Below are positions 5,078 through 33,220 of a stretch of 50,748 nucleotides of DNA, one piece after another. Position 1 is the stretch's first letter, and the number at the start of each line of letters is the position of its first letter. Made by a program: the position numbers and the translations under genes. The notes beneath the pieces are model-generated. The model was given only the letters and a program-made list of their open reading frames with translations. It did no database searches and was not told where the DNA came from. Source of the stretch: Gammaproteobacteria bacterium (GTDB lineage Bacteria > Pseudomonadota > Gammaproteobacteria > UBA6429 > Thiohalophilaceae); the NCBI GenBank assembly GCA_026197095.1, contig JAPHTF010000016.1, forward strand, positions 1 through 50,748, given 5' to 3'.

Positions 5078-5134
5078 ATAACTTTGTTTAAATAGCATTT
5101 ATGACAAATAGACCCGTTTCAATGTGAAAGAAAA

Positions 5135-5830
5135 ATGACAAACAAAAATGATTATATTTTAGTTGTAGATGATGAGCGTGCAATTCGAGACATGGTATGT
5201 ATGGCACTTGCCCAGGAACTCTACCAGTGGGAAGAAGCCAGTGATGCACATAAAGCAGAATCAATAATTAAGCAAAATCCGCCACAACTCATATTGCTTG
5301 ACTGGATGATGCCGGGTATTAGTGGAATTGATTTTGCCCGAAAACTCCGCCGCATGCCTGAAACTGAACATATTCCTATTATAATGCTCACGGCAAAAAC
5401 TGAAGAAGACAATGTTATACGCGGCCTGGAAAGCGGTGCCGACGACTACCTCACTAAACCTTTTTCTCCACGAGAACTCATTGCACGAATCAAAGCATTA
5501 TTACGCCGTAGCAAACAGGAAAATACTCAAGATATAATTCGAGTCAATGGCCTTATGCTAGATACAGGATCTTATCGTGTTGAAGGAAACGGCCAAACTA
5601 TCGAACTTGGACCAACTGAATTCAAACTATTACGCTTTTTTATGGAAAATTCTGATCGTGTTTTTAGTCGTGAACAGGTGCTAAATAATGTCTGGGGTGA
5701 TAATGTCTACGTTGAAGAACGTACAGTCGATGTTCACATACGCCGACTGCGAAAAGCACTGGAAAAAACAGGTCTCCAGGATATGGTGCAAACTGTTCGC
5801 GGTGCAGGTTATCGTCTGTCTAATAAATAA
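5135..5830 (+). CDS. phoB: Phosphate regulon response regulator PhoB
   Basis: 231 aa OmpR/PhoB-type regulator, the usual family length. Receiver domain at 1-120: acidic pair D12-D13, phospho-acceptor D56 in LILLDWMMPG, T86 and K108 (YLTKPFSPREL). A C-terminal winged helix (about 130-230) ends in TVRGAGYRLS. PhoB phosphorylated by PhoR activates phosphate-starvation genes at Pho boxes. A Pho box precedes this gene and others in the window. phoR follows after 12 nt, so the two are co-transcribed. Confidence 0.97.
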   Translation: MTNKNDYILVVDDERAIRDMVCMALAQELYQWEEASDAHKAESIIKQNPPQLILLDWMMPGISGIDFARKLRRMPETEHIPIIMLTAKTEEDNVIRGLESGADDYLTKPFSPRELIARIKALLRRSKQENTQDIIRVNGLMLDTGSYRVEGNGQTIELGPTEFKLLRFFMENSDRVFSREQVLNNVWGDNVYVEERTVDVHIRRLRKALEKTGLQDMVQTVRGAGYRLSNK

Positions 5831-5842
5831 CAATTATTTTAA

Positions 5843-7129
5843 ATGTCACCTCAACAACAACATGAAATAACAACGCTTCTGGTACTCATTGCCACCAGCG
5901 CAGCAATTGGTGCTTTATTTAATAAATCACTACTCTTCGTTACGATTGTTCTTTTTATCTATATTATTTTTATGTTGGGTAATGTCTTTAAACTGCATGA
6001 CTGGTTACTTGAACAAAAAAGTGAACTACCCGATGCCCAGGGTTACTGGGGTGAAATATTTAATGAGCTGCACTTACTTGAAAGAAAAAAGAACAAACAA
6101 CAAAAACTATTATCGGTAGCCCTGTCCCGTTTTAAAAAAGCAGCTGAGGCTTTACCTGATGGTGTTGTTATTTTAAGTCAGCAAAATGAAATCGAATGGG
6201 TAAACCCGATTGCCAGTTCATTGCTGGGTATTGCCTATCCACGCGATGCCGGACAGAAAATTAATAACCTTATCCGTCATCCAAATTTTCAACGTTATTT
6301 AAGTAAGGAAAAATTTAGCAAAACAATTACGATTCCATCTCCCGATAATGCTGAAAACATTTTGACTATTCAAATCATTCCCTTTGGTTATAAACAAAAA
6401 ATGATTTTCTGCCGAGATGTTACCCATATTCATAAACTTGAAGAGATGCGTACAAACTTCGTATCTAATGTTTCTCATGAAATGCGTTCACCTTTAACCG
6501 TATTAACCGGCTACCTGGAAATGTTTTCAGACAACATTCCCAAAGATGAAAAAAGTTTCAAATTAGGTCTCGAAAATATGTATCAACAGGCAATGCGTAT
6601 GCAGCGACTTGTTACAGATCTTCTGGCCTTATCAAAAATGGAAACAGCCCCTATTGAACACGCTAAACAGGTTGATGTTGCTACCCTGTTAATTACTTTA
6701 AAAGAGAATGCCGAGGTTTTAGGTCAGCACAAAAAGCAGACTATTACACTTGATGCTGACGAAGACGTTAAACTACGCGGTAATGTTCATGAACTGCATA
6801 GCTTATTTGCCAACCTGATTAATAATGCCGTTCGTTATACGCAGGAAAACGGCTCTATCAAAATCAGCTGGAAAAAGCAGGGGAATGAAGCGGTCTTTTC
6901 CGTTTCAGATAATGGACCTGGCATTGCTGCAAAACATATCCCTCACTTAACTGAGCGTTTTTATCGTGCGGATATTGATCGCTCACGAGAATCAGGTGGT
7001 ACTGGTTTAGGACTCGCGATAGTGAAATATGCGGCTGAGCGTCATGATGGCCGCCTGGTAATCAGCAGCTCCCTGGGTGAAGGCTCCACTTTTAAGTGTT
7101 ATTTTCCTGAACAACGTATTTCAGCTTAA
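5843..7129 (+). CDS. phoR: Phosphate regulon sensor histidine kinase PhoR
   Basis: 428 aa inner-membrane histidine kinase that phosphorylates PhoB when phosphate is scarce. Two N-terminal membrane segments (about 10-26 and 29-47) are joined by almost no periplasmic loop, as in PhoR. A PAS domain (about 100-195) follows, then HisKA with H212 in NVSHEMRSPLTVL. The HATPase domain has N-box LFANLINNAVRYTQ (about 321-334), DNGPG, and GGTGLGLAIVK. The Pst transporter and PhoU, also in this window, are expected to control its activity. Confidence 0.96.
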   Translation: MSPQQQHEITTLLVLIATSAAIGALFNKSLLFVTIVLFIYIIFMLGNVFKLHDWLLEQKSELPDAQGYWGEIFNELHLLERKKNKQQKLLSVALSRFKKAAEALPDGVVILSQQNEIEWVNPIASSLLGIAYPRDAGQKINNLIRHPNFQRYLSKEKFSKTITIPSPDNAENILTIQIIPFGYKQKMIFCRDVTHIHKLEEMRTNFVSNVSHEMRSPLTVLTGYLEMFSDNIPKDEKSFKLGLENMYQQAMRMQRLVTDLLALSKMETAPIEHAKQVDVATLLITLKENAEVLGQHKKQTITLDADEDVKLRGNVHELHSLFANLINNAVRYTQENGSIKISWKKQGNEAVFSVSDNGPGIAAKHIPHLTERFYRADIDRSRESGGTGLGLAIVKYAAERHDGRLVISSSLGEGSTFKCYFPEQRISA

Positions 7130-7279: not shown

Positions 7280-8263
7280 ATGAAATCTAAACTACTCCAG
7301 ACTATCAGCATGAGCGTGTTGGCAGTCAGTTTATCTTCTTTTGTTACATTGGCTCATGCTGGTTCAACATTAGATAAGAAACTACCTGAATACAAAAAAG
7401 CAAGCGGTGTAACAGGCAACCTTTCAAGTGTAGGTTCTGACACTTTAGCTAACTTAATGGCATTATGGACAGAAGAGTTCACTCATCTTTACCCAAATGT
7501 GAACGTACAAGTTCAAGCTGCAGGTTCTTCTACTGCGCCACCCGCTTTAACTGAAGGCACGTCAAATTTCGGACCTATGAGCCGTAAAATGAAGGATAAA
7601 GAATTACAGGCTTTCGAAAAGAAATTCGGTTACAAACCAACGGCAATTGCTGTAGCGATTGACGCATTAGCAGTATATGTACATAAAGATAACCCAATCA
7701 AAGGTTTAACTATTCCTCAAGTTGATGCAATTTTCTCTTCTACACGTAAGTGTAAAGGTGACAAAGATATCGCCACATGGGGTGATGCTGGTTTAGATGG
7801 CTCATGGAAAAATAAGAGCATCCAAATCTACGGTCGTAACTCAGTATCGGGTACATACGGTTACTTCAAGAAAAAAGCATTATGTAAAGGTGACTACAAA
7901 ACAACGGTAAATGAACAGCCCGGTTCTGCTTCAGTCGTTCAGTCTGTATCATCTTCATTAAATGGCATTGGTTACTCAGGTATTGGTTATAAAACTTCTG
8001 GCGTGCGCGCTTTAGCTTTAACAAAAAAACCAGGTAAGCCATTTGTTGCGGCGACTGCAGAAAATGCGGCAAACAAAACATACCCATTAGGTCGTAACTT
8101 ATGGGTCTATGTTAACAAGAAGCCAAATACACCTTTAAACCCAATGCAATATGAATTCCTTAAAATGGTTTTATCTAAGCAAGGTCAAAAAGTGGTAATT
8201 AAAGATGGATACATTCCATTGAGCGCTAAAATGGTTGAAAAAGAACTCGCTAAATTAAAATAA
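7280..8263 (+). CDS. pstS: Periplasmic phosphate-binding protein PstS
   Basis: 327 aa ABC-type substrate-binding protein that captures phosphate in the periplasm for PstCAB. A Sec signal peptide ends near AHA-GST (about residue 28). Phosphate-contacting motifs are visible: [28 protein letters not shown] and [12 protein letters not shown]. It resembles the PstS group of aquatic proteobacteria more than E. coli PstS. Good ribosome site: GGGAG before ATAAAATG. It is separated from pstCAB by a catalase gene on the other strand and ends in a strong terminator, so it is its own transcription unit. Confidence 0.95.
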
Positions 8264-10563: not shown

Positions 10564-10581
10564 TTGTCATATTACTGTCAT
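10564..10581 (+). promoter_or_regulatory. Proximal Pho box of pstC
   Basis: TTGTCAT-ATTA-CTGTCAT is nearly identical to consensus. -10 candidate TATTAT at 10589-10594, again 7 nt downstream. Transcription from it would start only a few bases before the pstC ATG at 10604. Confidence 0.9.
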
Positions 10582-18202: not shown

Positions 18203-19162
18203 TCATAAATTAATTACATTAAAACCCCAACCCACCAGGGTAAATGCAACGGCCAGGACGCTGGCATACAATGCCAATGCTGGCCACTTAATCACTTTAC
18301 GCAAGATAATCATTTCAGGTAGTGACAGCGCGGCGATACTCATCATAAAGGCCAGCGTGGTACCTATCGCAACACCTTTGCCGAGCATCGCTTCAGCTAC
18401 CGGAATAACGCCGGTTGCATTGGAATACAATGGCACGCCTAGCAGCACCGCACCGGGCACGGCCAACCAGTTATCCTTACCGCCCAGGTGTTCGGTAACC
18501 CAACCTTCAGGTACATAGCCATGAAATACTGCACCCACCGCAATGCCCGCAATTATCCATTTCCATAAGCGGCGAAGAATTTCTTTTACCTCACCCCATG
18601 CATAAGTGTGTCTGCCACGAAGACTGGTATCAACTTCGGCCAGGTTGGCTTCCCCCATCTGGATTTTCCATACATACTCTTCAACCCAGCGTTCTGGTTT
18701 AAAGTGCTGCATGATAACGCCACCGATATAAGCAACAACCAGTCCGGCTGCAACATACATGGCCGTGAGTTCCCAACCAAGGATGCCGAGCAAAATAACC
18801 ACTGCCACTTCGTTGATCATCGGGCTGGCAATAAGAAACGAAAAGGTCACACCCAGTGGTATCCCCGCCTCAACAAAACCGATAAATAAAGGCACCGATG
18901 AACAGGAGCAAAAGGGTGTGATCGCACCGAGAAGAATTGCCAGGGTACGCGCTAACCATTGTGGTTTACCGCGTACATACTCGCGGACCTTTTCTGGTGA
19001 CAACAGGGCACGTAGCAACCCCATCACGTAAATAATAATAACCAGCATGACAAAGATCTTCGTCGTATCCATCACAAAAAAATGCAACGCGGCACCGGCA
19101 TGGCTGTCAGCATTGAGACCAAGCCATTGATAGGCGACAAGATTTGCTAATTCATCAAACAT
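18203..19162 (-). CDS. ArsP_1/DUF318 family permease
   Basis: 319 aa integral membrane protein with about eight helices. The family signature PFCSCSSVPLFIGFVEAGIPLGVTF (about 82-106) contains the CSC motif, and a mirrored motif GVPLYSNATGVIPVAEAML occurs in the second half. Relatives include ArsP, which exports trivalent organoarsenicals, but many family members have unknown substrates. Its ATG overlaps the upstream sulfurtransferase stop (TAATG), so translation is coupled. The three redox/thiol proteins downstream suggest a soft-metal or sulfur-bound substrate. Confidence 0.85.
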   Translation of the reverse strand: MFDELANLVAYQWLGLNADSHAGAALHFFVMDTTKIFVMLVIIIYVMGLLRALLSPEKVREYVRGKPQWLARTLAILLGAITPFCSCSSVPLFIGFVEAGIPLGVTFSFLIASPMINEVAVVILLGILGWELTAMYVAAGLVVAYIGGVIMQHFKPERWVEEYVWKIQMGEANLAEVDTSLRGRHTYAWGEVKEILRRLWKWIIAGIAVGAVFHGYVPEGWVTEHLGGKDNWLAVPGAVLLGVPLYSNATGVIPVAEAMLGKGVAIGTTLAFMMSIAALSLPEMIILRKVIKWPALALYASVLAVAFTLVGWGFNVINL

Positions 19163-20088
19163 TACAGTGCAAATGCCTCATCATAAGGTTTATTACCTTC
19201 TACGACTGGCAGGGTCAGGCTATTTCCCCAGTGTGACCAGCCGCCGTTGTACATGCGAACATCTATATAACCCAGGCTTTTCAATTGCATAAAAGCAAGA
19301 CTCATACGGAAACCGTCATGACAATAAACATAGATGGTCTTGTTTTTAGGTATCGCTTTGTACATCTCGGCCAGCTGTTCTTTGCTCAACCATTTCTGAC
19401 TCAGGGCATCAGTTCCATCAAGGCTAACAACATTAATCGCTCCGGGAATATGTCCACCCTGGATGGCATGCTGGATCACTTTGCCGGTGTACATATCATG
19501 TGGCCGTGCATCCAGCAGTACCACACCAGGATCACGCCGTGACACCACGTCATCATAAACAGCCGTCCACTCAACAAACAATTTTTGATTGGCAGGTTTG
19601 AGTATGACCTTGCCTGCCTTTGGTTTTATCGCTTTAGTAGAAAGCTCATTAAATGCCGTCCACTCGATAGTACCTCCATCAAGCACTTTGACCCGTGACA
19701 TATCATAACCATATAAATTAAGCAGGAAATACAGGCGTGATGCCAGCGCGGTGCGTGAGTCATCATAGATAACGATCACGGAATCATTATTCACTCCCCA
19801 ACGACGTAGCGTATTTTGAAATGCTTTTTGTGAAGGAAAACGCATCAGAGGATCAGCGTTATTATCTCCCAGGTCTTTGAATCGCTGTACCTGGCGTGCA
19901 CCTGAAATATGACCAACAGTGAAGTAACGGTGAGGGTGATAGCGCACTTCAAGCAAAACCAGTTTTGGATCATTGATGTGTTGTTCCAGCCACCCGGCCG
20001 AAACGAGCGCCTGGTTTTCTGCCATCGCTGCTACTGGCAATAAAAGCCAGCTAAAAATGATAATCAAATGTTTAAAGTGCCTTTTCAT
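19162..20088 (-). CDS. Periplasmic two-domain sulfurtransferase (rhodanese)
   Basis: 308 aa: signal peptide (MKRHFKHLIIIFSWLLLPVAAMA) and two tandem rhodanese domains. The first (about 25-145) lacks a Cys in its loop (IYDDSRTALASR), as in inactive first domains. The second (about 165-295) has the active Cys in VYCHDGFRMSLAF. Start at 20088 is chosen because GGAG lies 6 nt before it; the longer frame would need a GTG at 20100 with no ribosome site. Overlaps the permease by 1 nt; 92 nt after the sigma factor gene. Confidence 0.88.
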   Translation of the reverse strand: MKRHFKHLIIIFSWLLLPVAAMAENQALVSAGWLEQHINDPKLVLLEVRYHPHRYFTVGHISGARQVQRFKDLGDNNADPLMRFPSQKAFQNTLRRWGVNNDSVIVIYDDSRTALASRLYFLLNLYGYDMSRVKVLDGGTIEWTAFNELSTKAIKPKAGKVILKPANQKLFVEWTAVYDDVVSRRDPGVVLLDARPHDMYTGKVIQHAIQGGHIPGAINVVSLDGTDALSQKWLSKEQLAEMYKAIPKNKTIYVYCHDGFRMSLAFMQLKSLGYIDVRMYNGGWSHWGNSLTLPVVEGNKPYDEAFAL

Positions 20089-20180
20089 TTTAATCTCCAC
20101 TGAATGCTTGTTGTTTACGACAATTCATAGAAAAGAGGTATGTAACAGTGAAGACGCATGTAAAGGTAAAAGGATGCAGC

Positions 20181-20759
20181 TTAATTTGAATTTTTTGGCT
20201 TTTCTGGGCTTTCTATCTTTTCAGGTTGGCAGGATTCATGACAACAGACATTGCCTGTCTCGTCATATTTCACTTCACATAGTGTGTGTAATTGCTGCTT
20301 GAGGCGTTGCCGGGCACGTTGTATGCGTGACTTGGCACCCGGTAAACTAATATTTTTTTTCACTGCATACTCAGCCTGGTTTACACCATCCAGATCACAC
20401 AAAGTGATGGCTTCCCTGTCCTGTTCGCCTAACAATTGCAAGGCACGCGGCAAACAGGCCGATAGACTTTCAACTGCAGGTATTTCCTGCACAACATGTG
20501 GCTGTTCATCATCGAGTTCATCAAGTTCCGCGAAGTTCTTCTCTTTACGAAAAACATCAATCAACTGGTTTCGTGCAACTTTATACAGCCATGCACGAGT
20601 ATTATTAATGTCACAGAAGTTTTTACCCTGAGCTATCGCCTTGACAAAAACATTCTGCAGCAAGTCTTCAGACAACTGTCTGTCTCCCCGTGTTTGTTTA
20701 TTCAGGTAGCCACGCAGTTCTGCTTCATACTGTGTCCAACTATTAATAATGCAGTTCAT
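20181..20759 (-). CDS. sigZ: SigZ-family ECF-like RNA polymerase sigma factor
   Basis: 192 aa. Sigma-70 region 2 (about 10-80: LSEDLLQNVFVKAIAQG, RAWLYKVARNQLIDVFRK) and region 4 (about 115-165: LGEQDREAITLCDLDGVNQAEYA, GAKSRIQRARQRLKQQL). The tail carries GNVCCHESC, which could bind metal or sense redox state. Such factors usually pair with an anti-sigma factor, but none is adjacent. The next genes are a sulfurtransferase and permease, so it probably controls its own operon in response to a thiol or metalloid stress (inference). Confidence 0.85.
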   Translation of the reverse strand: MNCIINSWTQYEAELRGYLNKQTRGDRQLSEDLLQNVFVKAIAQGKNFCDINNTRAWLYKVARNQLIDVFRKEKNFAELDELDDEQPHVVQEIPAVESLSACLPRALQLLGEQDREAITLCDLDGVNQAEYAVKKNISLPGAKSRIQRARQRLKQQLHTLCEVKYDETGNVCCHESCQPEKIESPEKPKNSN

Positions 20760-20819
20760 TATATTTAAAGAATAGCAGAAGTTACTCTACAGTATCTGCT
20801 GATTCTTATTTCCTCCCTG

Positions 20820-22013
20820 TTACCGGGGCAGCTTGATCGACAAGAACGCGGCTATTATCACAAAGATACTCGACCACCATAAACAACCGGTTAAGCCCTG
20901 TGTTTGATAGATCAACCCCGACAATACCGTTCCGCTAAGACGACCACCTGCATTGGCCATATAATAAAACCCCACGTTCATCGATACCTTGTCTTTATCT
21001 GACCAGGCAACAATTAAATAAGAATGTACTGCAGAGTTAATGGCAAAAATGGCGCCGAAGATAATTAAGCCCGTGACCAGGGTAAGTTGTGGTTGAACGT
21101 CATAGCTTAACGCGATGGCAATAAACGCCGGTATTAACGCCAGGATAAACGCCCACAACTTCGCGGTATTGCCATCCGGGCCTTTACCGTGATGACTGTA
21201 ACGTAATAATTTTGGTGCACTGGCCTGGATAAAACCATAGCCGATAATCCAGAGTGCAAGATAACTTCCTACCTGCATAAAACTCCAGTTAAAAACGGAA
21301 TAGAGATAAACCGGTAAGGCCACTACGAACCAGACATCACGTGCACCAAAGAGGAAAAACCGTGCCGCGGATAACCAGTTAATCGCAGGCGCTTTAGAAA
21401 AAACCTGGGTAAATTTGGGTTTAGCTTTAGACTTTCCTAAACCAGACGGTAACAACAGCATGGTAATGATTAACACCAGCAAAAGGCTTGCGGATAAAAC
21501 AGCCAAGGCTCCCCTGAATTCAAGCGTCTGTAATAACAAGGCACCAATAAAAAAACCTGCGCCTTTAAGTGCATTTTTAGAACCGGTCAGAACAGCTATC
21601 CATTTAAATAATTTTGTTTCGCTTTCATGTTGTGGCAATAATGTTTTCACACTGGCCTTGGCCGACATTTTATTCAGGTCTTTTGCAATTCCCGACAGGG
21701 CCTGCGCTGCCATAACATATACCACTGACAACCATGATTCCGGTACCATTAACATGGCCAGCGCAATTACTTGTATCGCCATACCGATATGCATTGTTAA
21801 ATTTAAACCAATACGTGAACCTAGCCAGCCACCTACAAGGTTAGTCACAATGCCAAAGAACTCATAAAACAAAAACAACATTGCCACCTCAAAAGGTGAA
21901 TAACCGAGCAAGTGGAAGTACAACACCACCAGCATACGGATGGCACCATCGGTAATGGTGAAAGCCCAGTAACCTGCGGTAACAACCAGGTAATTTTTCA
22001 ATGCTGTCGTCAT
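20820..22013 (-). CDS. arsJ: Organoarsenical efflux MFS transporter ArsJ
   Basis: 397 aa, 11-12 membrane helices, major facilitator superfamily. N-terminal MTTALKNYLVVTAGYWAFTITDGAIRMLVVLYFHLLGYSPFEVA is typical of ArsJ. ArsJ exports 1-arseno-3-phosphoglycerate made by the partner GAPDH, removing arsenate from the cell. The GAPDH gene is immediately upstream (6 nt gap) with ArsR before it, the standard cluster. The stop is 61 bp before sigZ, which could allow read-through into the thiol operon. Confidence 0.94.
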   Translation of the reverse strand: MTTALKNYLVVTAGYWAFTITDGAIRMLVVLYFHLLGYSPFEVAMLFLFYEFFGIVTNLVGGWLGSRIGLNLTMHIGMAIQVIALAMLMVPESWLSVVYVMAAQALSGIAKDLNKMSAKASVKTLLPQHESETKLFKWIAVLTGSKNALKGAGFFIGALLLQTLEFRGALAVLSASLLLVLIITMLLLPSGLGKSKAKPKFTQVFSKAPAINWLSAARFFLFGARDVWFVVALPVYLYSVFNWSFMQVGSYLALWIIGYGFIQASAPKLLRYSHHGKGPDGNTAKLWAFILALIPAFIAIALSYDVQPQLTLVTGLIIFGAIFAINSAVHSYLIVAWSDKDKVSMNVGFYYMANAGGRLSGTVLSGLIYQTQGLTGCLWWSSIFVIIAAFLSIKLPR

Positions 22014-22019
22014 ATATGA

Positions 22020-23042
22020 TTAAAGTTGACTTGCAACTTTGCGGGTTAAATCCATCATGCGATTAACATAGCCCCATTCATTATCATACCATGCGTAAAT
22101 TTTTACCTGGGTGCCGTCTATCACCATGGTTGATAAGGCATCAATAATGGATGAACGTGGATCGTTAACATAATCAATCGAGACAAGCGGACGTTCTTCA
22201 TAACCTAAAATACCTTCCAGGTAATTTTCAGAAGCATACTTAAACAACTCGTTTACTTCCTCGATAGTTGTCGCTCTTTCTGACTCAAAAACAAAATCCG
22301 TTAGCGAAGCGTTTAATAAGGGAACACGCACTGCATGGCCGTTAAGCTTGCCTTCAAGATCGGGGAAAATTTTTGTTATCGCTTTGGCTGAACCGGTTGA
22401 AGTCGGAATTAAAGACTGGCCACAGGCACGTGCGCGGCGTAAATCTTTATGACCTTTATCAACAATAGTTTGCGTGTTGGTAATATCATGGATAGTCGTC
22501 ATGCAGCCATGTTTAATCCCCAAACTTTCATTCATGACTTTAACCACGGGCGCGAGGCAGTTAGTTGTACATGAAGCCGCCGTTACTAAATGATGTTTAT
22601 CCGCGTCATACTGATCATCGTTAATACCGTATACAATATTTAACGCACCTTCTGTCGGTGCCGCGACAATCACTATTTTCACCCCTTGTGCAAAATAATC
22701 ATTCAGGCTTTCAGGATTTTTATGATGTTTGCCCGTGGCCTCAATAACAATATCGCAACCTGACCAGTCAGTGTCTGCAATCTTCTGGTTTGATGAATAT
22801 AGAATTTCCTGATCATCCACGATCATTTTATTATCTTTAGATGAAGTTTCGTGATTCGCTGAAGTCTCGTGATTCCAGATACCATGCACCGAATCAAACT
22901 TCAATAAATGCGCTGAGCCCACAGCATCGGTTGCCGTTTCATTCACCTGCACCAGTGAAAATTCGTCTTTGTTCCAGCCCGCCCTGAAGCCAAGACGCCC
23001 CATACGGCCGAAACCGTTTATACCCACACGTTTTTTAGTCAT
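22020..23042 (-). CDS. gapdh: ArsJ-associated glyceraldehyde-3-phosphate dehydrogenase
   Basis: 340 aa, NAD-dependent GAPDH of the ArsJ-linked type. Rossmann motif [11 protein letters not shown] (6-16), catalytic Cys C158 in [12 protein letters not shown]-terminal [15 protein letters not shown]. In place of phosphate it uses arsenate with glyceraldehyde-3-phosphate, giving unstable 1-arseno-3-phosphoglycerate for export by ArsJ. Residues 58-68 show a small internal duplication, [12 protein letters not shown]. Second gene of arsR-gapdh-arsJ, 21 nt after arsR. Confidence 0.93.
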
Positions 23043-23063
23043 TGTTTTATTCCTAATATGTAT

Positions 23064-23417
23064 TTATGCACAACAGCGCCCACCGGGGCGATCTGGCATT
23101 ATTGATAAACGAGTAAAATCTGATTTATAAGGTTGCTGTTCAGCTGATGTGCTAAGCGTTTCTGCTAAAACAGTATTCACCCAGCGCGGCAAATCCGGGT
23201 TAAGCCGGTAGTGCACCCACACCCCTTCCTTGCGATCTACCACCAGGCCCGCCTTACGCAGGGTCGCCAGGTGACGTGAGATCTTGGGTTGCGATTCGCT
23301 AATGGCATGAATGAGCTCGCATACACACAGTTCACCTTCTGACTGCAATAACAGCAAAGTACGCAGCCGTGTGCCATCCGCTAGCTGTTTAAAAAATTCT
23401 GAGGCTTCAATATTCAT
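23064..23417 (-). CDS. arsR: Arsenic-responsive repressor ArsR
   Basis: 117 aa winged-helix SmtB/ArsR protein. The As(III) site of classical ArsR is visible as ELCVCEL with C31 and C33. The recognition helix is SESQPKISRHLATLRKAGLV. The tail ends GGRCCA with another vicinal Cys pair. I start at 23417 (MNIEASEFFKQLADGTR), the normal family start. A longer frame to 23483 exists but would run through the likely operator palindrome. No clear ribosome site at either start. It should repress gapdh-arsJ until arsenite binds. Confidence 0.88.
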   Translation of the reverse strand: MNIEASEFFKQLADGTRLRTLLLLQSEGELCVCELIHAISESQPKISRHLATLRKAGLVVDRKEGVWVHYRLNPDLPRWVNTVLAETLSTSAEQQPYKSDFTRLSIMPDRPGGRCCA

Positions 23418-23435
23418 GCGCGAAATATACGCCAA

Positions 23436-23449
23436 ACCATATATATGGT
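23436..23449. promoter_or_regulatory. Candidate ArsR operator
   Basis: A perfect 14-bp palindrome ACCATATATATGGT lies 19 bp upstream of the chosen arsR start, in an AT-rich stretch that could also hold the -10 element. Position and form suit an ArsR-family site; binding is inferred. Confidence 0.55.
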
Positions 23450-23554
23450 AAAGCATATATATAAGACCAGGTGCTAATTTCATAAAAAGTTCATCTGGTC
23501 ATAAAACGGCAATCTCTAGCGTGTACATATTAGTTTCTTAACGATTAATTAATC

Positions 23555-24304
23555 ATGAACATGGATAAAATAAACACTGGCGTTTTGATACACGGGTGTA
23601 ACCTGGGAGCATTTCAGTGGCAGCGCATTGTCTGGGGAGAGCCACCCCATAAAATCGGGCGCATTACCCGTGCCCTGCTCGTGCTGCTTGAAGATACATT
23701 ACAACTGCAGTCGAAGCTGGCAGTATTGGTGATCGGAACCAATGTGGTCTGGAATGGCGGCGGAAAAAGAGCAAAACGCAGTGGTCGTACCGAGGCCGAG
23801 GAAATGCGAAAATTGATGTTTAAAAACCTTCATTGACTCAGGAAGTTTACGGTATTTAATACACGTTTTCCCGAAGTCAGTGATGATGGGTTCATTGAAA
23901 AATTACGTCAGCAACTAGAACAACACACAAAACTTGCTACTAACTGTGAAAATACCGCGGAAGAAATTCGAAATGTACTTCAGATTTTTCAGCAACATGA
24001 GGTCAACCGGGCTGTCCTGGTATCAAGCCCAGTTCATTTACCTCGCTGTATTAAAGAAGCTGCAATAATCTTCAATAAAACTGAATCTACCTCAATGCAC
24101 CATAATCTTTATGCTACACCCAGCGATACCAATTACCAGGATACTGCCCCCTCCGATGTCGCAATATTTGAACCGCCCCACCGCCCTGACCGGCCAATGT
24201 ACCCCATACAACAATTCGTCAGTCGCATCGCACAGGTAAGCCATAAGAAAATGGAATTCTTTCTCAGAGATCTCGATGAGCTTTTAGAAGACTACGGTGC
24301 TTAG
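23555..24304 (+). pseudogene. YdcF/DUF218-like protein frame interrupted by one TGA
   Basis: A 249-codon reading frame in a single phase, broken only by TGA at 23834-23836 (codon 94). The part before (LIHGCNLGAFQWQRIVWGEPPHKIGRI..., then TEAEEMRKLMFKNLH) and after (TAEEIRNVLQIFQQHEVNRAVLVSSPVHLPRCIKEA) both read as a DUF218-like alpha/beta protein. The 3' part runs to TAG at 24304. Most likely a recent nonsense change (for example CGA to TGA) or a sequencing error. UGA recoding as selenocysteine is an alternative that I do not favour. No strong ribosome site at the first ATG. Confidence 0.65.
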
Positions 24305-24339: not shown

Positions 24340-26151
24340 CTAATCCCGGTGAACACGACGCTCATGAAATAAACTGTTACCGGGAATATTTTTCGCATTA
24401 CTCTTTGCCTGGCTGGCCAATTCAGCCACATCGGTGTATGAATGGCAATGATCCAGGTCTGGAATAACGGCGCCGATAGACAAGCTCATGACAGGGTAAA
24501 ATTCGTTTTCACCATTACGGGCACTGGCGAAGATACCATTATTTTTTAAATCCATATCGGTATAAAACTTTACAATTTCCTGTTCAAAACTGTTCAATAT
24601 ATTTTCACAACATTGATGCCAGTTTTCACTTTTGAATATCAAGATAAAATCGTCACCACCAACATGCCCGACAAAATCCTGGTTAGGGATAACATACTGT
24701 AAAAGAATGCCGGCAACCGTTTTAATCACTTTATCACCCTTGGCATAACCATAGACATCGTTGTATGGTTTAAAGTTATCAATGTCACAATAAGCAATAC
24801 AAAACTTATTGTTAGCGGCAAGCATGGCATCAATTTTTTCATAAATAGGCACATTGCCTGGCAGCATGGTTAAGGGGTTGGCATAGCGTGCATTTCTTAT
24901 TTGTAAATCTGTAATCTTTTTTAATAACTGTACCACCTTACCCAGGCCTGCAAACTTTCCATTCTCGGTAATAACAAAATCATCTTCAATTTGCATTTGC
25001 ATGTTATCGGTAACAAATTTACTTACCTGCTCAAAACTCCAATCCTTATCAACAATAACCGGGGAATGATCAATAAATTCCTGAACTGAGCGCGCACCAT
25101 ATAAAGAACGGCCATACTGAGTTGAAAATGTTGCTAACAGCTGATTGCGCCTGACCAGACCCCGGGTGATTCCATCCTGATCCAGTACAGGTATTGAATT
25201 TATTGTTTCATTACCATGAAAAATCTTATGTACTTCTTCCAGTGTGATATCTGGTAATACGCCGGGTACCTTAATTAATAATTCAGATATATTTTCTGAT
25301 GAACTATTTTTTAATTCACCACAGTCCCGGGGTGAAGAGCAACAAAATAACTCGTTTGAAATAACATAGGGTGGATTTAATTGGGGTCGGGAAAAATAGT
25401 ACCCCTGGATAAGCGTGATCCCCATCGCATAGATGGTGCGGTATTCATCTAAAGTTTCTATACCTTCAGCAATAACCTTACAACCTAGCCCCTGCGCAAT
25501 ATCATTGATGGATTTAACAAATGACTTTTTTACCTGGTCTTCATTTATACCCTGTATAAAATGTTTATCTATCTTTACGTAATCTGGCCTGATTTCAGAC
25601 CAACGCCGCAGGCCAGAGTAACCGGCACCAAGATCATCAATCGCAATTTTAAATCCCATTAACTTGTAATGTTCAATCGCGTTGCGCATGACTTCAAAAT
25701 TCTCCATCGGAGACTGCTCTGTCATTTCAATTACAACATTTTCAGGTTGAATCCCTGCCTTTGATAAAATCTCAAGCGTAAGCCCGGAACGATGTCCCGG
25801 CTCAAGTAAACTTTCAGGTGTTGCATTCAGGAATAACTTTCCAGGTAATTGTTTTTGCTGGAAATGGGTTATACCCACCTCGCGACAAAGCAGATCAAGT
25901 TCAAGTAATTGTCCGCTACGAATAGCTATATCAAATAACTTGACGGGGCTATGGTACGGACTGTCTGACGGTCCCCTGATAAGCGACTCATACCCGTATA
26001 TTGTACGCTGGTCTAAATCAACAATAGGCTGGAAAAGTGGTGATAGTTTTTTTGAAGCAATAATTTCTCCAAAGACCTGGAAATCATCATGCAACTCATG
26101 TTGTGACATAGATGTAGTGTTCCTCATCGCTAATGAGTGACTCGTGTTCAT
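24340..26151 (-). CDS. EAL-CBS-GGDEF c-di-GMP turnover protein
   Basis: 603 aa, cytoplasmic, no membrane helix. EAL domain (about 30-265) with ESL in place of EAL but the other catalytic signatures kept: N in LFLNATPE, E in IEMTEQ, IDDLGAGYS, KIDKHFI, IAEGIET, QGYYF; probably an active phosphodiesterase. A CBS pair spans about 285-415. GGDEF domain (about 425-595) has GGDDF as its signature and no RxxD inhibitory site, so cyclase activity is uncertain. A Pho box lies 51 nt upstream, so expression probably rises in phosphate starvation. Divergent from a chemoreceptor gene. Confidence 0.9.
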   Translation of the reverse strand: MNTSHSLAMRNTTSMSQHELHDDFQVFGEIIASKKLSPLFQPIVDLDQRTIYGYESLIRGPSDSPYHSPVKLFDIAIRSGQLLELDLLCREVGITHFQQKQLPGKLFLNATPESLLEPGHRSGLTLEILSKAGIQPENVVIEMTEQSPMENFEVMRNAIEHYKLMGFKIAIDDLGAGYSGLRRWSEIRPDYVKIDKHFIQGINEDQVKKSFVKSINDIAQGLGCKVIAEGIETLDEYRTIYAMGITLIQGYYFSRPQLNPPYVISNELFCCSSPRDCGELKNSSSENISELLIKVPGVLPDITLEEVHKIFHGNETINSIPVLDQDGITRGLVRRNQLLATFSTQYGRSLYGARSVQEFIDHSPVIVDKDWSFEQVSKFVTDNMQMQIEDDFVITENGKFAGLGKVVQLLKKITDLQIRNARYANPLTMLPGNVPIYEKIDAMLAANNKFCIAYCDIDNFKPYNDVYGYAKGDKVIKTVAGILLQYVIPNQDFVGHVGGDDFILIFKSENWHQCCENILNSFEQEIVKFYTDMDLKNNGIFASARNGENEFYPVMSLSIGAVIPDLDHCHSYTDVAELASQAKSNAKNIPGNSLFHERRVHRD

Positions 26152-26202
26152 AAAATTTTTTCCGTACTAAAATATTTCAAAAATACATGTTGATACAGCA
26201 AT

Positions 26203-26220
26203 ATGACAGTTACATGACAA
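26203..26220 (-). promoter_or_regulatory. Pho box facing the EAL-CBS-GGDEF gene
   Basis: On the minus strand TTGTCAT-GTAA-CTGTCAT, as good as the proximal pstC box. -10 candidate TATCAA lies 7 nt downstream (26190-26195), the same spacing as at pstC. The start codon follows at 26151. Confidence 0.85.
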
Positions 26221-26313
26221 TGATTAAATCATTGTTACCTGGATCGTTATTTTCTTAGTTAGACGGCTGATACTGCCTGATTAACAGGGTGTATTTTCAA
26301 AATATTTAAATTT

Positions 26314-26331
26314 CTGTAATACAAATGTAAC
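26314..26331 (+). promoter_or_regulatory. Probable Pho box facing the chemoreceptor gene
   Basis: CTGTAAT-ACAA-ATGTAAC on the plus strand, 57 nt before the chemoreceptor ATG. It keeps the 7-4-7 layout with the CTGTAAC-type variant seen at pstS and phoB. The -10 is less clear than at the other sites. Confidence 0.6.
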
Positions 26332-26388
26332 AAAACTTTCGTAACTTCACTTACTTAAATTATGGTTTGTTAATACCCAGGTATTGTT

Positions 26389-28332
26389 ATGAAACTTGCA
26401 CTTGCATCACGTATAAATAGCGCTCTTATTATTCTTTTTGTATTTCTCATGGTAACCGTTGGTATCTGGGGCTGGATACAAATGGAAAAACCCTATGCTT
26501 ATAACCGCGAATATCAACAAATACAAAACATCGTTAATCTTGATATCAGAATTACGCTGGAACGTTATTTACGCTCGGGTAATGCAACCTTGTTACTGGA
26601 GGCTGAAAACCATCTGAATAAACTGTCACAGATAAATGTCGACTGGCTGCCACAGGACGCGACAAGCAAAATAAAAAAGAGTACCTCAGACGTGCTACAT
26701 GCGTTACAGAACGTACGTGCAGCAGGAAAACTTTCAGCCAACCCACAGGGCTTGCTGGTCAATAATGAACGCGATCGTATTTCCGATATTTCATTATTAA
26801 AATCCTATATTAACAATGACACAAAAAACATATCCACTTTAAAAGACAAATACCGGAACCATATTATTGATCTGGCAATGGGCATGCAGAACATCGCCTA
26901 TTACCGCCAGCGCTATATTGAAACCAGTAATACAAAATTAAAAACCGCCTTGTTAAATGAAAATAAAGTGTTCAGTAATACTTTAGATGCATTAAATAAA
27001 CTTCCACGCCTGGGTATTTTTACTGCAGTGGATAAAGGTGATGATTTCGCTGATGAAGAAAAAACAGAAAAAGGACAGGAAATAATTGATAGCCTTATTT
27101 CACTTACCCGGCGTTATGAAAAAGAACTGGCTAACACAACCAATATTTACCAACGTATAAGAGAAAGCCAGCAGAACCTGTCAGCAGCGATTTCTTCACT
27201 TAATAATGAGATTACAGTGTATGCCACTGAAGTAGATGCGATTAAAGATCGTATTTCGAGGGATGTAAAACTGTTAGTCTCACTGTTTGTACTGCTTACT
27301 ATTTTCGCCATTGTTATTTCATTTGTTTTGCAAAACAAGATCATCAATTTCCTGCAGCAACTGGTTCCTTTTCTTAAAGGCATGACCACGGGTAATTTCA
27401 AAACGAACCTGATAAGCACTTCTCGTTTTAGCGAAGTGAATTCTGTCACTACCTCGGCTAACCAGCTTCGTCATTACCTTGCAGAAACAATTGAAAAACT
27501 CCAGCTCGAAGCAAGCCAGATATTAAGTACCAGCAACAAGGTACAGTGGGCGATTGACCAGGCCACGGATTTGGCCAACCAGCAAAATATTGAGACCGAG
27601 CAGGTTTCAAGCTCCATTCAACAAATGTCACAGTCGTTCAGTGATGTCGCAGCAAGCGCTGTGCATGCTTCGGACGCCGCAAATGAGGCGAACGATGCCG
27701 TTCAAAATGCCAATACCGAGTTGCAGCTTTCAAATAACAATATCGAGCAACTCTCTTCCGATATTCTCTCGCTGGTACAGTTAATGAACCACCTCGAAGA
27801 AGGTAGTAATAATGTACAGACCGTACTGGACGTGATTCAAAGTATCGCAGAACAAACCAACTTATTGGCGCTGAATGCTGCCATCGAAGCGGCTCGTGCT
27901 GGTGAGCAAGGTCGTGGCTTTGCAGTGGTCGCAGACGAAGTGCGGCAACTCGCACAGCGCACGGCAGATTCCACCCTGGAAATCAGGCACATCGTGGAAA
28001 GCTTAACCAACATCGCCTCCGAAGCAGCCACTAGCGTCAAACGTCACAGTACAGCCGCGGGAGTATGTGTGCAAAGCACCCAGCAAGCACAGCAAGCGTT
28101 ATTACCCGTCGTCAGTTCGGTACAAATTATTAACGAGATGAATGCCGGCATCGCGGCAGCAACAGAGGAGCAGTCTACCGTGGCCGCCGGCGTGGTGGAG
28201 AATTCCAGGGTGATTAAGCAAAGTGCTGAAGATGTCAGTGTGAATCTCGTCATGGTGCGTGATTCAAGTGACAGTTTGTCCCAGGTCAGTCAGAGTTTAA
28301 ACCAGCTGGTAGCGCAACTAAAAGCTGGATAA
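26389..28332 (+). CDS. Methyl-accepting chemotaxis protein
   Basis: 647 aa transmembrane chemoreceptor. Helix 1 at about 8-30, a ~255-residue largely helical periplasmic sensor domain (about 31-290), helix 2 at about 291-314 ([21 protein letters not shown]), a HAMP linker (about 315-370), then the signalling domain. The hairpin tip is [37 protein letters not shown] (about 484-520). No C-terminal CheR-docking pentapeptide. No che genes are nearby, so it feeds a pathway encoded elsewhere. A Pho box upstream suggests induction by phosphate limitation; the ligand is unknown. Confidence 0.92.
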
Positions 28333-28430
28333 TGCTCTAAACGCCTGGCCACTAATCCCGCAAAGCCTTTATTTAATCCTGCCCAACTCTGGGCTAAGAT
28401 ACAGACTTGCTTGCTTAGATGAGGCCAGGT

Positions 28431-28829
28431 ATGAAAGATAAACCGTTAACCATCGGCGTTTTAGCCAAAACGGCCAAGGTAAATATCGAGACTGTCCGTT
28501 ATTATCAGCGATTTGGCATTATCGATGAACCGCCTAAACCCGCAGATGGCTATCGTATCTACCCGGCGGAGACGATTGATCGTATTCGGTTTATCAAGCG
28601 AGCGCAGCAACTGGGTTTTAGCTTGAAGGAAATTGCTGAATTATTAGAGTTAGGCGACGGCCATTGTGATGATGTTCGGTTACGTGCCGAAGAAAAACAG
28701 GCGCACATCGATGCGCAAATTAAAGACTTGAGGATGCTACGCGGGACACTGGATAAGCTAATTAAAGCATGCCAATCTGGCAGTGACACCGCCCATTGCC
28801 CAATTGTGGATACACTTACAGGGAAATAA
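28431..28829 (+). CDS. merR: Mercury-responsive regulator MerR
   Basis: 132 aa from the chosen ATG. MerR HTH at about 7-45 (TIGVLAKTAKVNIETVRYYQRFGII) and dimerisation helix. The three Hg(II)-binding Cys of Tn21/Tn501 MerR are kept with exact spacing: C79, C114, C123. Start at 28431 has GAGG 6 nt upstream; the ATG at 28419 does not. Unusually it points the same way as merTPA rather than diverging, and the mer operator lies after it. Confidence 0.93.
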   Translation: MKDKPLTIGVLAKTAKVNIETVRYYQRFGIIDEPPKPADGYRIYPAETIDRIRFIKRAQQLGFSLKEIAELLELGDGHCDDVRLRAEEKQAHIDAQIKDLRMLRGTLDKLIKACQSGSDTAHCPIVDTLTGK

Positions 28830-28905
28830 ATCAATCATATCAATCACTTATTCATAAATACTTAAAATAATTATTTTTTTTCTGACTAATTTTAGATCTT
28901 TTTAC

Positions 28906-28936
28906 TTGACTCTGTACCTATGTACGGCATTTAAGC
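28906..28936 (+). promoter_or_regulatory. MerR-controlled mer promoter and operator
   Basis: -35 TTGACT (28906-28911) and -10 TTAAGC (28931-28936) are separated by 19 bp, the over-long spacer typical of MerR-activated promoters. The dyad CTGTAC-CTAT-GTACGG sits between them, close to the Tn501 merO. merT starts 34 bp later. Confidence 0.85.
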
Positions 28937-28970
28937 TCCTTAGTAATTCAAGATAACTGGAGCAAACAAG

Positions 28971-29336
28971 ATGGTAAATTCCTCCTCTACCAACAGCCGC
29001 ACAGTCACAAGCGTCATCGCTGCAACACTGGCTGCCATTGGTGCATCGCTTTGCTGTATAGGGCCACTGGTACTTCTGACATTGGGAATCGGCGGTACCT
29101 GGATCAGCAACCTTGCAGCACTGGAGCCCTATCGCCCCGTATTTATTGGCATCACTCTTTTTTTCCTATTCCTCGCTTTTCGCAAACTTTACCTGGTTCC
29201 TCGTCAATGTGCGCCAGATGCTGCCTGTGTGATACCCAGTACCTTGCGTAACCAGCGGATTATATTTTGGGTCGTCTCAGTGTTGTTAATCGCATTACTG
29301 ACCTTTCCGTACTACGGCTTGGCATTTTTTGAATGA
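28971..29336 (+). CDS. merT: Mercuric ion transporter MerT
   Basis: 121 aa inner-membrane protein with three helices. Vicinal Cys pair C28-C29 in the first helix (GASLCCIGPLVLL) and the cytoplasmic pair C80/C86 (RQCAPDAAC) match MerT. It takes Hg(II) from MerP and passes it to MerA. First gene after the mer operator; merP follows 51 nt later. Confidence 0.95.
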   Translation: MVNSSSTNSRTVTSVIAATLAAIGASLCCIGPLVLLTLGIGGTWISNLAALEPYRPVFIGITLFFLFLAFRKLYLVPRQCAPDAACVIPSTLRNQRIIFWVVSVLLIALLTFPYYGLAFFE

Positions 29337-29387
29337 GCCGCTCTTTTTGAATAAATAGTGAAATCGATAACTATCTGGAGTAACCAA

Positions 29388-29681
29388 ATGAATCGCAACC
29401 TTATATTTTCAGCCCTCATGCTGCTTGGCGCACTGTTAACACCCTTCTTAGCATCTGCGGCAGAAACTAAAACAGTTACCTTAGATGTGCCTGGCATGAC
29501 ATGTAAATTCTGCCCCATCACCATTCGTAAAGCACTGGAAAAAGTACCAGGGGTGATCGATGCAAAATCCGATTATGAAACGAAGTCAGCAACAGTGACA
29601 TTCGATCCTGACAAGACAAATATTGAGGCACTTACCAAGGCAACGGAAAATGCAGGCTATCCTTCTGTGCTCAAAAAATAG
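29388..29681 (+). CDS. merP: Periplasmic mercuric ion-binding protein MerP
   Basis: 97 aa: signal peptide (about 1-24, ending FLASA) and one HMA domain with the Hg-binding motif GMTCKFC (C39, C42). Start at 29388 is chosen for its GGAG ribosome site; an in-frame ATG 30 nt earlier lacks one and would misplace the signal peptide. It scavenges Hg(II) in the periplasm for MerT. Confidence 0.95.
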   Translation: MNRNLIFSALMLLGALLTPFLASAAETKTVTLDVPGMTCKFCPITIRKALEKVPGVIDAKSDYETKSATVTFDPDKTNIEALTKATENAGYPSVLKK

Positions 29682-29688
29682 GTCATAG

Positions 29689-31329
<1,641 letters not shown>

Positions 31330-31361: not shown

Positions 31362-31796
31362 ATGAGCGATTGTTGTAGTTCCAGCTGTGATAGCCAAAGT
31401 AATGATAACAAATCATCACCTCGTAAATTGGCCTGCCCGGAAAACCAGCTTAAATATGTCCAGGTACCGGTTAAAACCATGCTGCATCATCTAAAGGAAC
31501 CCTGGAAGTATTACTTTAAAGATCAGGCGTATTATTTTTGTACAGACACAGACTGTGATGTGGCTTATTTTGCAGAAGATGGTTCAGTCATTAATAAAAC
31601 AGAGCTAAGAACAGCACTCGCTGGAACCGAAAAATATGAAGATAAGGTGATCTGTTTTTGCTTTGGCGTTACTTTACAAGATGCAAAAGCAAATCCCGGT
31701 ATAAAAGCATTTGTCATGCAGCACACGAAGCTTGGGACTTGTGACTGCGAAACCCGCAACCCGTCCGGACACTGTTGTTTAAAAAATTTTCCATAA
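31362..31796 (+). CDS. CopZ-like iron-sulfur metallochaperone-type protein
   Basis: 144 aa, Cys-rich throughout. N-terminus MSDCCSSSC, central CTDTDCDVAYF, then ICFCFGV and the tail CDCETRNPSGHCC. The arrangement matches the N-terminal [2Fe-2S]/Zn domain of Archaeoglobus CopZ; no HMA domain is fused here. Start at 31362 has GAGGA upstream; the longer frame to 31317 would overlap merA. It closes the mer operon in the same direction. A role in delivering metal or electrons to MerA or in soft-metal buffering is inferred. Confidence 0.78.
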   Translation: MSDCCSSSCDSQSNDNKSSPRKLACPENQLKYVQVPVKTMLHHLKEPWKYYFKDQAYYFCTDTDCDVAYFAEDGSVINKTELRTALAGTEKYEDKVICFCFGVTLQDAKANPGIKAFVMQHTKLGTCDCETRNPSGHCCLKNFP

Positions 31797-31805
31797 TTCA
31801 TAGTA

Positions 31806-31823
31806 CTGTCACATCTTTGTCAA
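31806..31823 (+). promoter_or_regulatory. Pho box upstream of the PhoX-like gene
   Basis: CTGTCAC-ATCT-TTGTCAA: the 7-4-7 layout with one mismatch in the first half and two in the second. -10 TAATAC at 31831-31836, 7 nt downstream as at pstC. It begins 10 bp after the stop of the mer operon. Confidence 0.8.
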
Positions 31824-31897: not shown

Positions 31898-33220
31898 ATG
31901 CTAAATAAAAAGCTTAATAAAAAAGCTACTGCACTTGCTGTAGCAACATCATTGCTTATTTCTTATGCTGCTTTTGCAGATGGTCATAAACATAAAACAT
32001 TTAATTTTAAAGAACTCGATAGTTCAGCAAATGCGGCTGACTGGAATGTGGAAAAACCCTGGAAATTACCAAAAGGGTTTACACAAACGGTCGTCTCTGA
32101 TGAATCAGACTTAAATATCTACGATGCGGGTCGTGATGACTGGAATGATATGAACGTAGTCAATGAAACCGGTCCACAGGCTGGTCGTTTCATGTACCGT
32201 ACTCATGAAGTACGTGGTGTACCTGAAGGTGGCGCGATTTCAGTTATTGATTTAAAAACAGGTAAAACAAAAATTCTGGCACAGGATTTATCCTGGACTG
32301 CGTTAGATGGTATTCGCTGGACGCCATGGGGCACTTTAGTCACTGCTGAAGAAACAACAGGTGGTCGTTTTCTGGAAATTGAATTGAATGAAGACATGAT
32401 GTCAGTAAAAGCGATACATGATCGTCCTGAAGTAGGCCGTCTGGCTCATGAAGGCATCGACATCGATGCAGAAGGTAATGTCTATATCGTTGATGAACAT
32501 CGTGGCCGCTCTTCAGGTTGTAATGGTGTTGTACCTTGTGGTGGTGGCATTTATAAATTTGTACCGGAAACATATGGTGATTTATCACGTGGTTCACTTT
32601 ACGTATTGAAAGTGAATGGTGCTGATGGTCTTGGCCAGGGTGAATGGGCTGGCCCAATTGATCCATTAACGGCTCGTGAATCAGGCTCAGCAGCAGGTGG
32701 TCAAAGTTACCAACGTCCTGAAGATGTCGAAATTATTGGTGATAATCTTTATGTTGCTATTACTGAAGGTCCACGCGATGTAGCAACTGCAAATGGTTCA
32801 TTAACTTTCAAGAGTGAACTTTATGAAGGCCGCGTTATTGCTGTTAACATGAAAAACATGAAAGTTTCTAACTTCGTTAAACCTGGCATGAATGTTCCTG
32901 TTGAAATCGGCAAGCCGGGTGAAGAAGGCCACCAAACAGGTTTCGATAGTATTGATAACCTTGCTGAAGCACCAAACGGTGATTTAATCATGATTGAAGA
33001 TAACAAACCTTCAGATATCTGGTTTGCTTCAACTAAAACCAACGAGTTTGGCGCTTCTAAAAAGGTAAAACTGTTTGCTTCATTAACGGATCCAGAAGCT
33101 GAAGGTACAGGTATTTACTTTAGCCCTACCGATCCCAAAACGTTATATGTAAATATCCAGCATTCTGCAGCAGAAGATGGTGATGGTACCTGGGCTATCA
33201 CACGCAAACATGATAAGTAA
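31898..33220 (+). CDS. Secreted PhoX/DUF839-family phosphatase-like protein
   Basis: 440 aa with a Sec-type signal peptide (about 1-27, ending YAAFA), not the twin-arginine signal of classical PhoX, and shorter than classical PhoX. Beta-propeller DUF839 motifs: RTHEV, LVTAEETTGGR, LAHEGIDIDAEGNVYIVDE, YQRPEDVEI and a Cys-containing loop SSGCNGVVPCGGG. PhoX enzymes are Fe/Ca-dependent extracellular alkaline phosphatases. The Pho box upstream supports a phosphate-scavenging role. A terminator follows. Phosphatase activity is inferred. Confidence 0.82.
   Translation: MLNKKLNKKATALAVATSLLISYAAFADGHKHKTFNFKELDSSANAADWNVEKPWKLPKGFTQTVVSDESDLNIYDAGRDDWNDMNVVNETGPQAGRFMYRTHEVRGVPEGGAISVIDLKTGKTKILAQDLSWTALDGIRWTPWGTLVTAEETTGGRFLEIELNEDMMSVKAIHDRPEVGRLAHEGIDIDAEGNVYIVDEHRGRSSGCNGVVPCGGGIYKFVPETYGDLSRGSLYVLKVNGADGLGQGEWAGPIDPLTARESGSAAGGQSYQRPEDVEIIGDNLYVAITEGPRDVATANGSLTFKSELYEGRVIAVNMKNMKVSNFVKPGMNVPVEIGKPGEEGHQTGFDSIDNLAEAPNGDLIMIEDNKPSDIWFASTKTNEFGASKKVKLFASLTDPEAEGTGIYFSPTDPKTLYVNIQHSAAEDGDGTWAITRKHDK

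Follow-up and report, generated by a model that had tools for sequence, protein, structure and literature searches.

In Vibrio cholerae, the c-di-GMP genes acgAB are under PhoB control; to our knowledge, no chemoreceptor gene lies beside them. In Pseudomonas fluorescens Pf0-1, rapA is reported to have an upstream Pho box to which phosphorylated PhoB (PhoB~P) binds, RapA to deplete c-di-GMP and cells to detach (PMC3032545). PA3258 of P. aeruginosa is named a putative RapA orthologue in another paper (PMC9394441). Among chemoreceptors, CtpL of P. putida BIRD-1 is described as made at low phosphate and as one of the proteins silenced in a phoBR mutant (PMC5082522), and CtpL is further described as having a large sensor domain without a recognised fold and as detecting phosphate through PstS (PMC4926252). 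In Agrobacterium tumefaciens GW4, a chemoreceptor gene, mcp, beside the aio genes is reported to encode a protein that senses arsenite and to be regulated by AioR (PMC7533571). In P. protegens Pf-5, mutants in phoB and in phoR are reported to swim like the parent at both phosphate levels. A literature search that took in few subscription papers returned none that joins the CBS domain, EAL, GGDEF and PhoB, and none that joins PhoB with acgA and acgB.

Here we describe a gammaproteobacterial locus in which a c-di-GMP enzyme gene of this kind and a chemoreceptor gene stand back to back. The window, by which we mean the whole stretch of DNA that was analysed (50,748 nucleotides), forms a single contig within a draft genome of 3.12 Mb that is 98.5% complete. 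The two genes are divergent and separated by a gap of 237 bases; phoB and phoR lie on this contig too, at a distance of 20 kb, and pst genes are also in the window. The ranks given with some of the features are explained further below.

5060-5077: Pho-type site of phoB itself, rank 15 in the window (orthologue matrix)
5135..5830, plus strand: phoB, the presumed regulator (NCBIfam PhoB equivalog, above cut-off)
5843..7129, plus strand: phoR (NCBIfam PhoR equivalog, above cut-off)
7169-7186: Pho-type site upstream of pstS, rank 23 in the window
7280..8263, plus strand: pstS (NCBIfam PstS subfamily, above cut-off)
10564..10581, plus strand: pstC Pho box TTGTCAT-ATTA-CTGTCAT, one mismatch, joint rank 1
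10604-12898: pstC gene (best NCBIfam family PstC, just under its cut-off)
24340..26151, minus strand: gene for an EAL-CBS-GGDEF protein of RapA/PA3258 type, 603 aa (Pfam EAL, CBS, GGDEF)
26389..28332, plus strand: gene for a methyl-accepting chemoreceptor, 647 aa (Pfam MCPsignal only)

Along the window, the phoB-phoR-pstS row is followed by pstC, pstA/pstB-like genes (assigned by eye) and phoU, then by arsenic genes and finally by the divergent pair. The enzyme shares with RapA and PA3258 an upstream Pho box and, with PA3258, the order EAL-CBS-GGDEF, but its gene faces away from a chemoreceptor gene and has pst close by, whereas in P. aeruginosa a gene for a carboxy-terminal-processing peptidase comes before it. 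With acgAB it has a predicted PhoB link in common; the genes and the architecture are different. The receptor resembles CtpL by description in having a large sensor domain without a recognised fold, and its conserved upstream box would fit expression at low phosphate, and it resembles the A. tumefaciens GW4 receptor in adjoining arsenic genes; in such Agrobacterium strains a pst1/pho1 cluster lies by aioBA, and the available sections of the GW4 paper mention no c-di-GMP enzyme alongside mcp (PMC7533571). An earlier, sequence-only reading of the locus had stated that neither gene is a classical member of the Pho regulon; this is misleading, given that the enzyme belongs with RapA and PA3258, that RapA is PhoB-activated and that CtpL is Pho-dependent.

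Several further features of the window were observed. On either side of the pair, at 18203-23483 and 28419-31329, lie genes for arsenic (ArsP, ArsJ, GAPDH, ArsR) and for mercury (MerR family, MerT, MerA), and the segment between the ArsR and EAL genes (23556-24304) appears by eye to be a broken-up ORF of a YdcF-like protein. A PhoX-like gene at 31898-33220 (PF05787), which has tandem Pho-like sites upstream (31795-31823, window ranks 4 and 10), is likely to be a further Pho member within the window. A good minus-strand Pho-like site (5124-5141, rank 3) spans the start codon of phoB.

Candidate PhoB sites were scored with a matrix built from 28 orthologue promoter sites, the window being excluded, and all 101,462 window positions were ranked; the matrix reads TTGTCAT-AAAA-CTGTCAC. 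The window as a whole holds 15 sites with at most three mismatches to the pattern CTGTCAT-N4-CTGTCAT, compared with 4.05 +/- 1.86 expected, and none of 100 shuffles reached 15. In the gap between the two genes, the following elements are found.

26192..26198, minus strand: third, poorer half-site on the enzyme side, CTGTATC, in the same 11-bp period
26220-26203, minus strand: predicted Pho box upstream of the EAL-CBS-GGDEF gene (TTGTCAT-GTAA-CTGTCAT), one mismatch
26314..26331, plus strand: predicted Pho box upstream of the chemoreceptor gene, at 75 nt from the ATG (CTGTAAT-ACAA-ATGTAAC)
26336..26342, plus strand: third, poorer half-site on the receptor side, CTTTCGT, in the same period
26342..26347, plus strand: tentative -10, TAACTT, 10 nt past the receptor box; uncertain, placed by analogy with the 10-nt gap of relatives

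Two divergent boxes of the 7-4-7 type, as first noticed in the bare sequence, are thus present between the genes, and relatives keep both. The minus-strand box had been called near perfect, and with the matrix it shares first place with the pstC box among all ranked positions. Only five sites with at most one mismatch occur in the whole draft genome: these two, one inside an ORF, one just upstream of a proteasome-subunit-like gene and one at a PstS-like/OmpA fusion gene. The last of these genes, in which a phosphate-binding-protein-like domain is fused to OmpA (L001, contig G000:C105), has a perfect Pho box 48 bases upstream (912-929), overlapped by one more site. The plus-strand box is, as had been noted, the weaker one (three mismatches, rank 25, shuffle p=0.033), with a score comparable to those of the sites before phoB and pstS. 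The boxes are separated by 93 bp, which argues for two separate promoters facing away from each other and against a single element in common. We assign a probability of roughly 0.65 to the reading that both promoters would be activated by PhoB, so that c-di-GMP falls while a phosphate receptor is made.

The start signals of both promoters are uncertain. It had been proposed that the enzyme-side promoter has a -10 element at the same 7-nt spacing as pstC, and by eye a TATCAA does follow the enzyme-side box, and a TATTAT the pstC box, at 7 nt; many relatives, however, point to a gap of 10-12 nt between box and -10. At 10 nt, the pstC promoter offers TATCAT and the EAL promoter a poor CAACAT, and inspection of the EAL promoter at 7- and 10-nt gaps gave no convincing -10. 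On the receptor side, the tentative TAACTT shares one base with the third half-site.

The kinship of the enzyme with PA3258 was examined through a P. aeruginosa plasmid record (L204), which carries a putative PA3258 gene with a processing-protease neighbour. The plasmid gene encodes a protein with 41% identity to the window enzyme and the same EAL-CBS-GGDEF order by Pfam, an order also seen in three scanned orthologues, and the window gene is by far its best match in the genome (513.6 bits, the next match scoring 83). Its upstream region contains a Pho box, GCGTCAT-AAAA-CAGTCAT-GGGA-CTGTCGT (shuffle p=0.004). The processing-protease gene before it is presumably PA3257. We regard the plasmid gene as likely to be PA3258 because it encodes a P. 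aeruginosa EAL-CBS-GGDEF protein, has the processing-protease neighbour and has alanine at residue 221, one paper giving both that residue and that domain order for PA3258 (PMC12900916). Four PA3258 positions given in another paper (PMC9394441) misfit the plasmid protein as numbered (all leucine), and all four fit if the start is placed 19 codons further upstream.

The window enzyme is a probable c-di-GMP phosphodiesterase. Of 70 aligned proteins, the window protein among them and one wrongly chosen ORF (G435) excluded, 69 or 70 retain the eight catalytic columns of the EAL domain. All 70 show GGDDF as their GGDEF motif, again including that of the window, and its GGDEF domain could make c-di-GMP too. 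Reports on PA3258 conflict. They describe phosphodiesterase behaviour of the intact protein and apparent cyclase activity once the EAL domain is disabled; one paper recalls that PA3258 had no phenotype in PAO1 and PA14 in an earlier screen, and deletion is reported to disrupt the mushroom-like structures of the mature biofilm, a loss that is not simply predicted from the absence of a phosphodiesterase. Because of these mutant reports we lowered our confidence in net phosphodiesterase activity slightly, to a level at which we still call it likely.

The same reports bear on an alternative, which we hold to be rather improbable, in which both genes are Pho-controlled but either the enzyme is mainly a cyclase or the receptor's ligand is something other than phosphate (arsenate, phosphonate or another phosphorus source). 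A mainly cyclase enzyme would fit the EAL-disabled PA3258 protein and a second paper that considers such activity possible, but RapA lowers c-di-GMP and PA3258 is reported to behave as a phosphodiesterase when intact. The effect of RapA in Pf0-1 is carried by LapG, whereas a search for LapG-type (C93) proteases found none in the draft genome, the same search having matched in only one of 14 control genomes; the known output route of RapA is therefore not seen in this genome. Output through LapD-LapG is the Pf0-1 route and does not define the enzyme type.

The enzyme is not a core trait of the lineage, since it is present (E<=1e-60) in only one of eight genomes of the genus and four of 40 of the family, with the window's own genome counted in both. 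At class level, 33 of 369 genomes carry an orthologue, again counting the window's own, and further orthologues come from named public records. In each upstream region, the best site on the gene strand within 300 bases was taken and was called significant at p<=0.05 by shuffling; the orthologue counts that follow are not independent samples. With the window left aside, 30 of 45 enzyme orthologues have such a box on the gene strand and 5 have one on the opposite strand, and the remaining 15 had no significant gene-strand box in those 300 bases. Counting sites with at most two mismatches gives 28 on the gene strand and 3 on the opposite one, and the gene-strand figure is far above that for neighbouring genes in the same loci (28/45 vs 17/358, Fisher 5e-20; opposite strand of the neighbours, 20/358). 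Eleven of 35 public-record loci entered the scan; L045 (no upstream sequence), L054-L056 (long, unclear N-termini) and L058-L077 (partial or distant matches) were among those left out, while L048 and L052, each split into two ORFs, were included.

In a tree of 71 proteins, which includes the wrongly chosen ORF and from which L048 and L052 are missing, among others, the window protein groups with the enzyme of genome G170 and five proteins from metagenome-assembled genomes in a clade of seven with support 100, all boxed. The wider clade of 12 is likewise boxed throughout, the window included (node support 82). One unboxed enzyme gene, in genome G122, lies 9 bases behind another gene in the same direction, and before that preceding gene are the half-sites TTGTCAT and CTGTCAC, 22 bases apart from start to start. 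In the family f3, by comparison, 28 of 30 scanned enzyme orthologues (those with loci among 34 matches) had no gene-strand box; two had one, and two had one on the opposite strand. The f3 loci (L175-L203) thus show mostly unboxed enzymes alongside boxed receptors, an apparent rewiring.

Boxes of this form might in principle belong to a different regulator of the OmpR family whose tandem motif is similar, since tandem repeats are common in that family; we consider this very improbable. The matrix, made without the window, has the GTCA(C/T) half-site and the 6-bp spacing reported for P. aeruginosa PhoB, the same motif stands before pstC, and several neighbours of the orthologues are phosphate genes. 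phoB itself adjoins the orthologue in genomes G365 and G268, which are sisters in the tree; in G401 (L127) the orthologue is followed by phnC, phnE and a gene for a phosphonate/phosphate binding protein; an Na/Pi cotransporter gene lies 3.4 kb away in G163; and ppk- and ppx-like genes lie 5-7 kb away in L046, L047 and L057. From the site and its conservation, we strongly infer PhoB control of the enzyme gene and would be surprised to see it fail.

The receptor side gave a similar picture. Relatives of the sensor domain were found in five other genomes of the class and in 23 of 57 genomes of f3, and 25 of 29 scanned upstream regions have a gene-strand box, with one of 29 on the opposite strand (shuffle p<=0.05). 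The boxed receptors comprise all 22 scanned in f3 (22 of 23 matches, L174 being left out for its short open frame) together with those of G122, G005 and one of two in G259 (G259b); the four regions in which the scan detected no box are those of G158, G259a, G367 and G003. The position of the box is also kept, with 21 of the 22 f3 boxes lying 63-81 nt before the start, a range that includes the window's own distance, and those outside f3 at 71 (G122), 108 (G259b) and 132 bases (G005). Many f3 receptor promoters show, by eye, a TAnnnT hexamer 10 bases past the box. A receptor in G200, matched by profile only, has CTGTCAC-GTGA-CTGACAT at -63 (shuffle p=0.004), and two Aeromonas records have CTGTCAT-AAAA-[GA]CGCCAT at -79 and -68 (p=0.004 and 0.008).

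These counts weigh against the idea that only the enzyme gene is PhoB-controlled, the receptor promoter being ordinary and its plus-strand match a chance one. By its rank and its mismatches such a match is poor enough to be suspected, and an equal site would be expected about 0.1 times in the gap (from the rank); a chance match would not account for boxes in all 22 scanned relatives of f3, in G200 and in two Aeromonas records, nor for a score like those of the phoB and pstS sites of the same window. We therefore regard this idea as unlikely. PhoB control of the receptor gene, predicted from the conserved box, is highly probable, only a little less so than that of the enzyme gene. The proposal of a phosphate-starvation circuit over both genes, made from the sequence of this one locus, is in this respect well supported by the conservation of boxes in orthologous upstream regions; a lack of such conservation had been named by the earlier reading as refuting it.

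The receptor's sensor domain spans about residues 31-290, and only the signalling domain of the protein is recognised. A profile search of the PDB gave no convincing match to the sensor domain (best E 0.38), NCBIfam gave no match, and Pfam gave only weak coiled-coil-like matches in two of 28 members (best E 0.0013). An AlphaFold model made without an alignment is helical and of low confidence (pLDDT 53.9). The conserved residues are, in window numbering, Y60, G64, GKL 113-115, R173, R242 and Y243, with R173 and R242-Y243 invariant in the aligned set, R128 invariant in the 28-row alignment and nearly so in a wider one, and GKL...ER as the family signature. The invariant basic residues would, as a guess, suit phosphate or a protein partner. 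On kinship with CtpL, tblastn searches of plasmid records for a Pseudomonas relative returned only Aeromonas matches.

A ligand other than phosphate, the second form of the alternative raised above, would be in keeping with a sensor domain that has no known relative, with the arsenic genes beside the pair and near the enzyme orthologues of G359 and G334 (both of which have arsJ-like genes nearby), and with phnC and phnE next to the orthologue of G401. Phosphate itself, or phosphate bound to PstS, is a guess made from the regulation of the receptor gene, and we think it about as probable as all other signals together.

Whether the enzyme and the receptor act together was judged from their distribution and arrangement. 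In f3 the enzyme is present in 22 of 23 genomes that have the receptor and in 12 of 34 that lack it (Fisher 4e-6), and within genera of f3 the co-occurrence gives p=0.0026 (g20) and p=0.13 (g177). Distantly related Gammaproteobacteria also have both, arranged in different ways. In G170, the boxed enzyme gene overlaps the gene of another chemoreceptor by 4 bases, and phoBR follow after about 1.9 kb; in G177, the enzyme gene has a chemoreceptor gene before it in the same direction; in G122, enzyme and receptor are 0.6 kb apart; and in G198 and G158 their genes are on different contigs. An MCP gene lies beside the enzyme orthologue in 3 of 34 loci, the window left out, which is hardly above chance (p 0.01-0.06, depending on the MCP density assumed). 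By sequence, joint Pho boxes are present in the window, G005, G457 and G200, and in G122 if an operon is counted; f3 mostly boxes the receptor only, so joint control is seen in few genomes and is not a rule.

Two side observations concern related arrangements. A Marinobacter salarius plasmid (L205) has a chemoreceptor gene divergent from an EAL-CBS gene, the GGDEF part being encoded by an ORF of its own, and only a weak Pho-like site (p=0.04). On contig G200:C1 (L218/L221), a Pho-boxed receptor of the same family directly follows a REC-REC-GGDEF gene. The latter arrangement resembles the neighbourhood of ctpL in P. aeruginosa, where we take ctpL to adjoin gcbA; the G200 enzyme groups with the P. 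aeruginosa enzyme in the 71-protein tree.

The pair might also be a chance neighbourhood in which each gene is Pho-regulated for reasons of its own, without a joint function. The separate contigs, the mostly unboxed enzymes of f3 and the low rate of adjacency speak for this, while the co-occurrence across f3 and the close arrangements in G170, G177 and G122 speak against it. We regard a chance neighbourhood as doubtful, although of the alternatives weighed here it is the one to which we give most room.

Under the reading of two PhoB-activated promoters, PhoR would phosphorylate PhoB when phosphate is low. PhoB~P would then bind the strong minus-strand box, leading to synthesis of the RapA/PA3258-type enzyme and a fall in c-di-GMP, and the weaker plus-strand box, leading to synthesis of a chemoreceptor from a regularly Pho-boxed family. 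The sessile signal would thereby be reduced as a phosphate receptor is installed, one that detects phosphate either directly or, as in CtpL, via PstS-phosphate. Starved cells may in this way let go of the surface and search for phosphate. The earlier suggestion of leaving a biofilm to seek phosphate corresponds in its first half to known RapA biology; for the genes of the window, we infer it by analogy, and both the negative LapG search and the parent-like swimming of the P. protegens mutants count against it. In its full form, as a module for letting go and looking for phosphate that combines a RapA-type phosphodiesterase with a receptor whose undescribed sensor detects phosphate or PstS-phosphate, the idea is tentative, and we would place it somewhat below even odds.

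The half of this scheme that links PhoB, RapA and detachment is already known in Pseudomonas and is here extended widely. New here are the pairing of the two genes, the extent to which the boxes are conserved, and a family of Pho-boxed receptors for whose sensor domain neither Pfam nor the PDB offers a convincing match. The boxes in many families of Gammaproteobacteria suggest that what is known of RapA in Pseudomonas is a single example of a widespread pattern. For the chemoreceptor family, a signal is predicted from regulation alone, which is hard to do for chemoreceptors, and the locus is compact enough that dispersal and the search for a single nutrient could be tested together.
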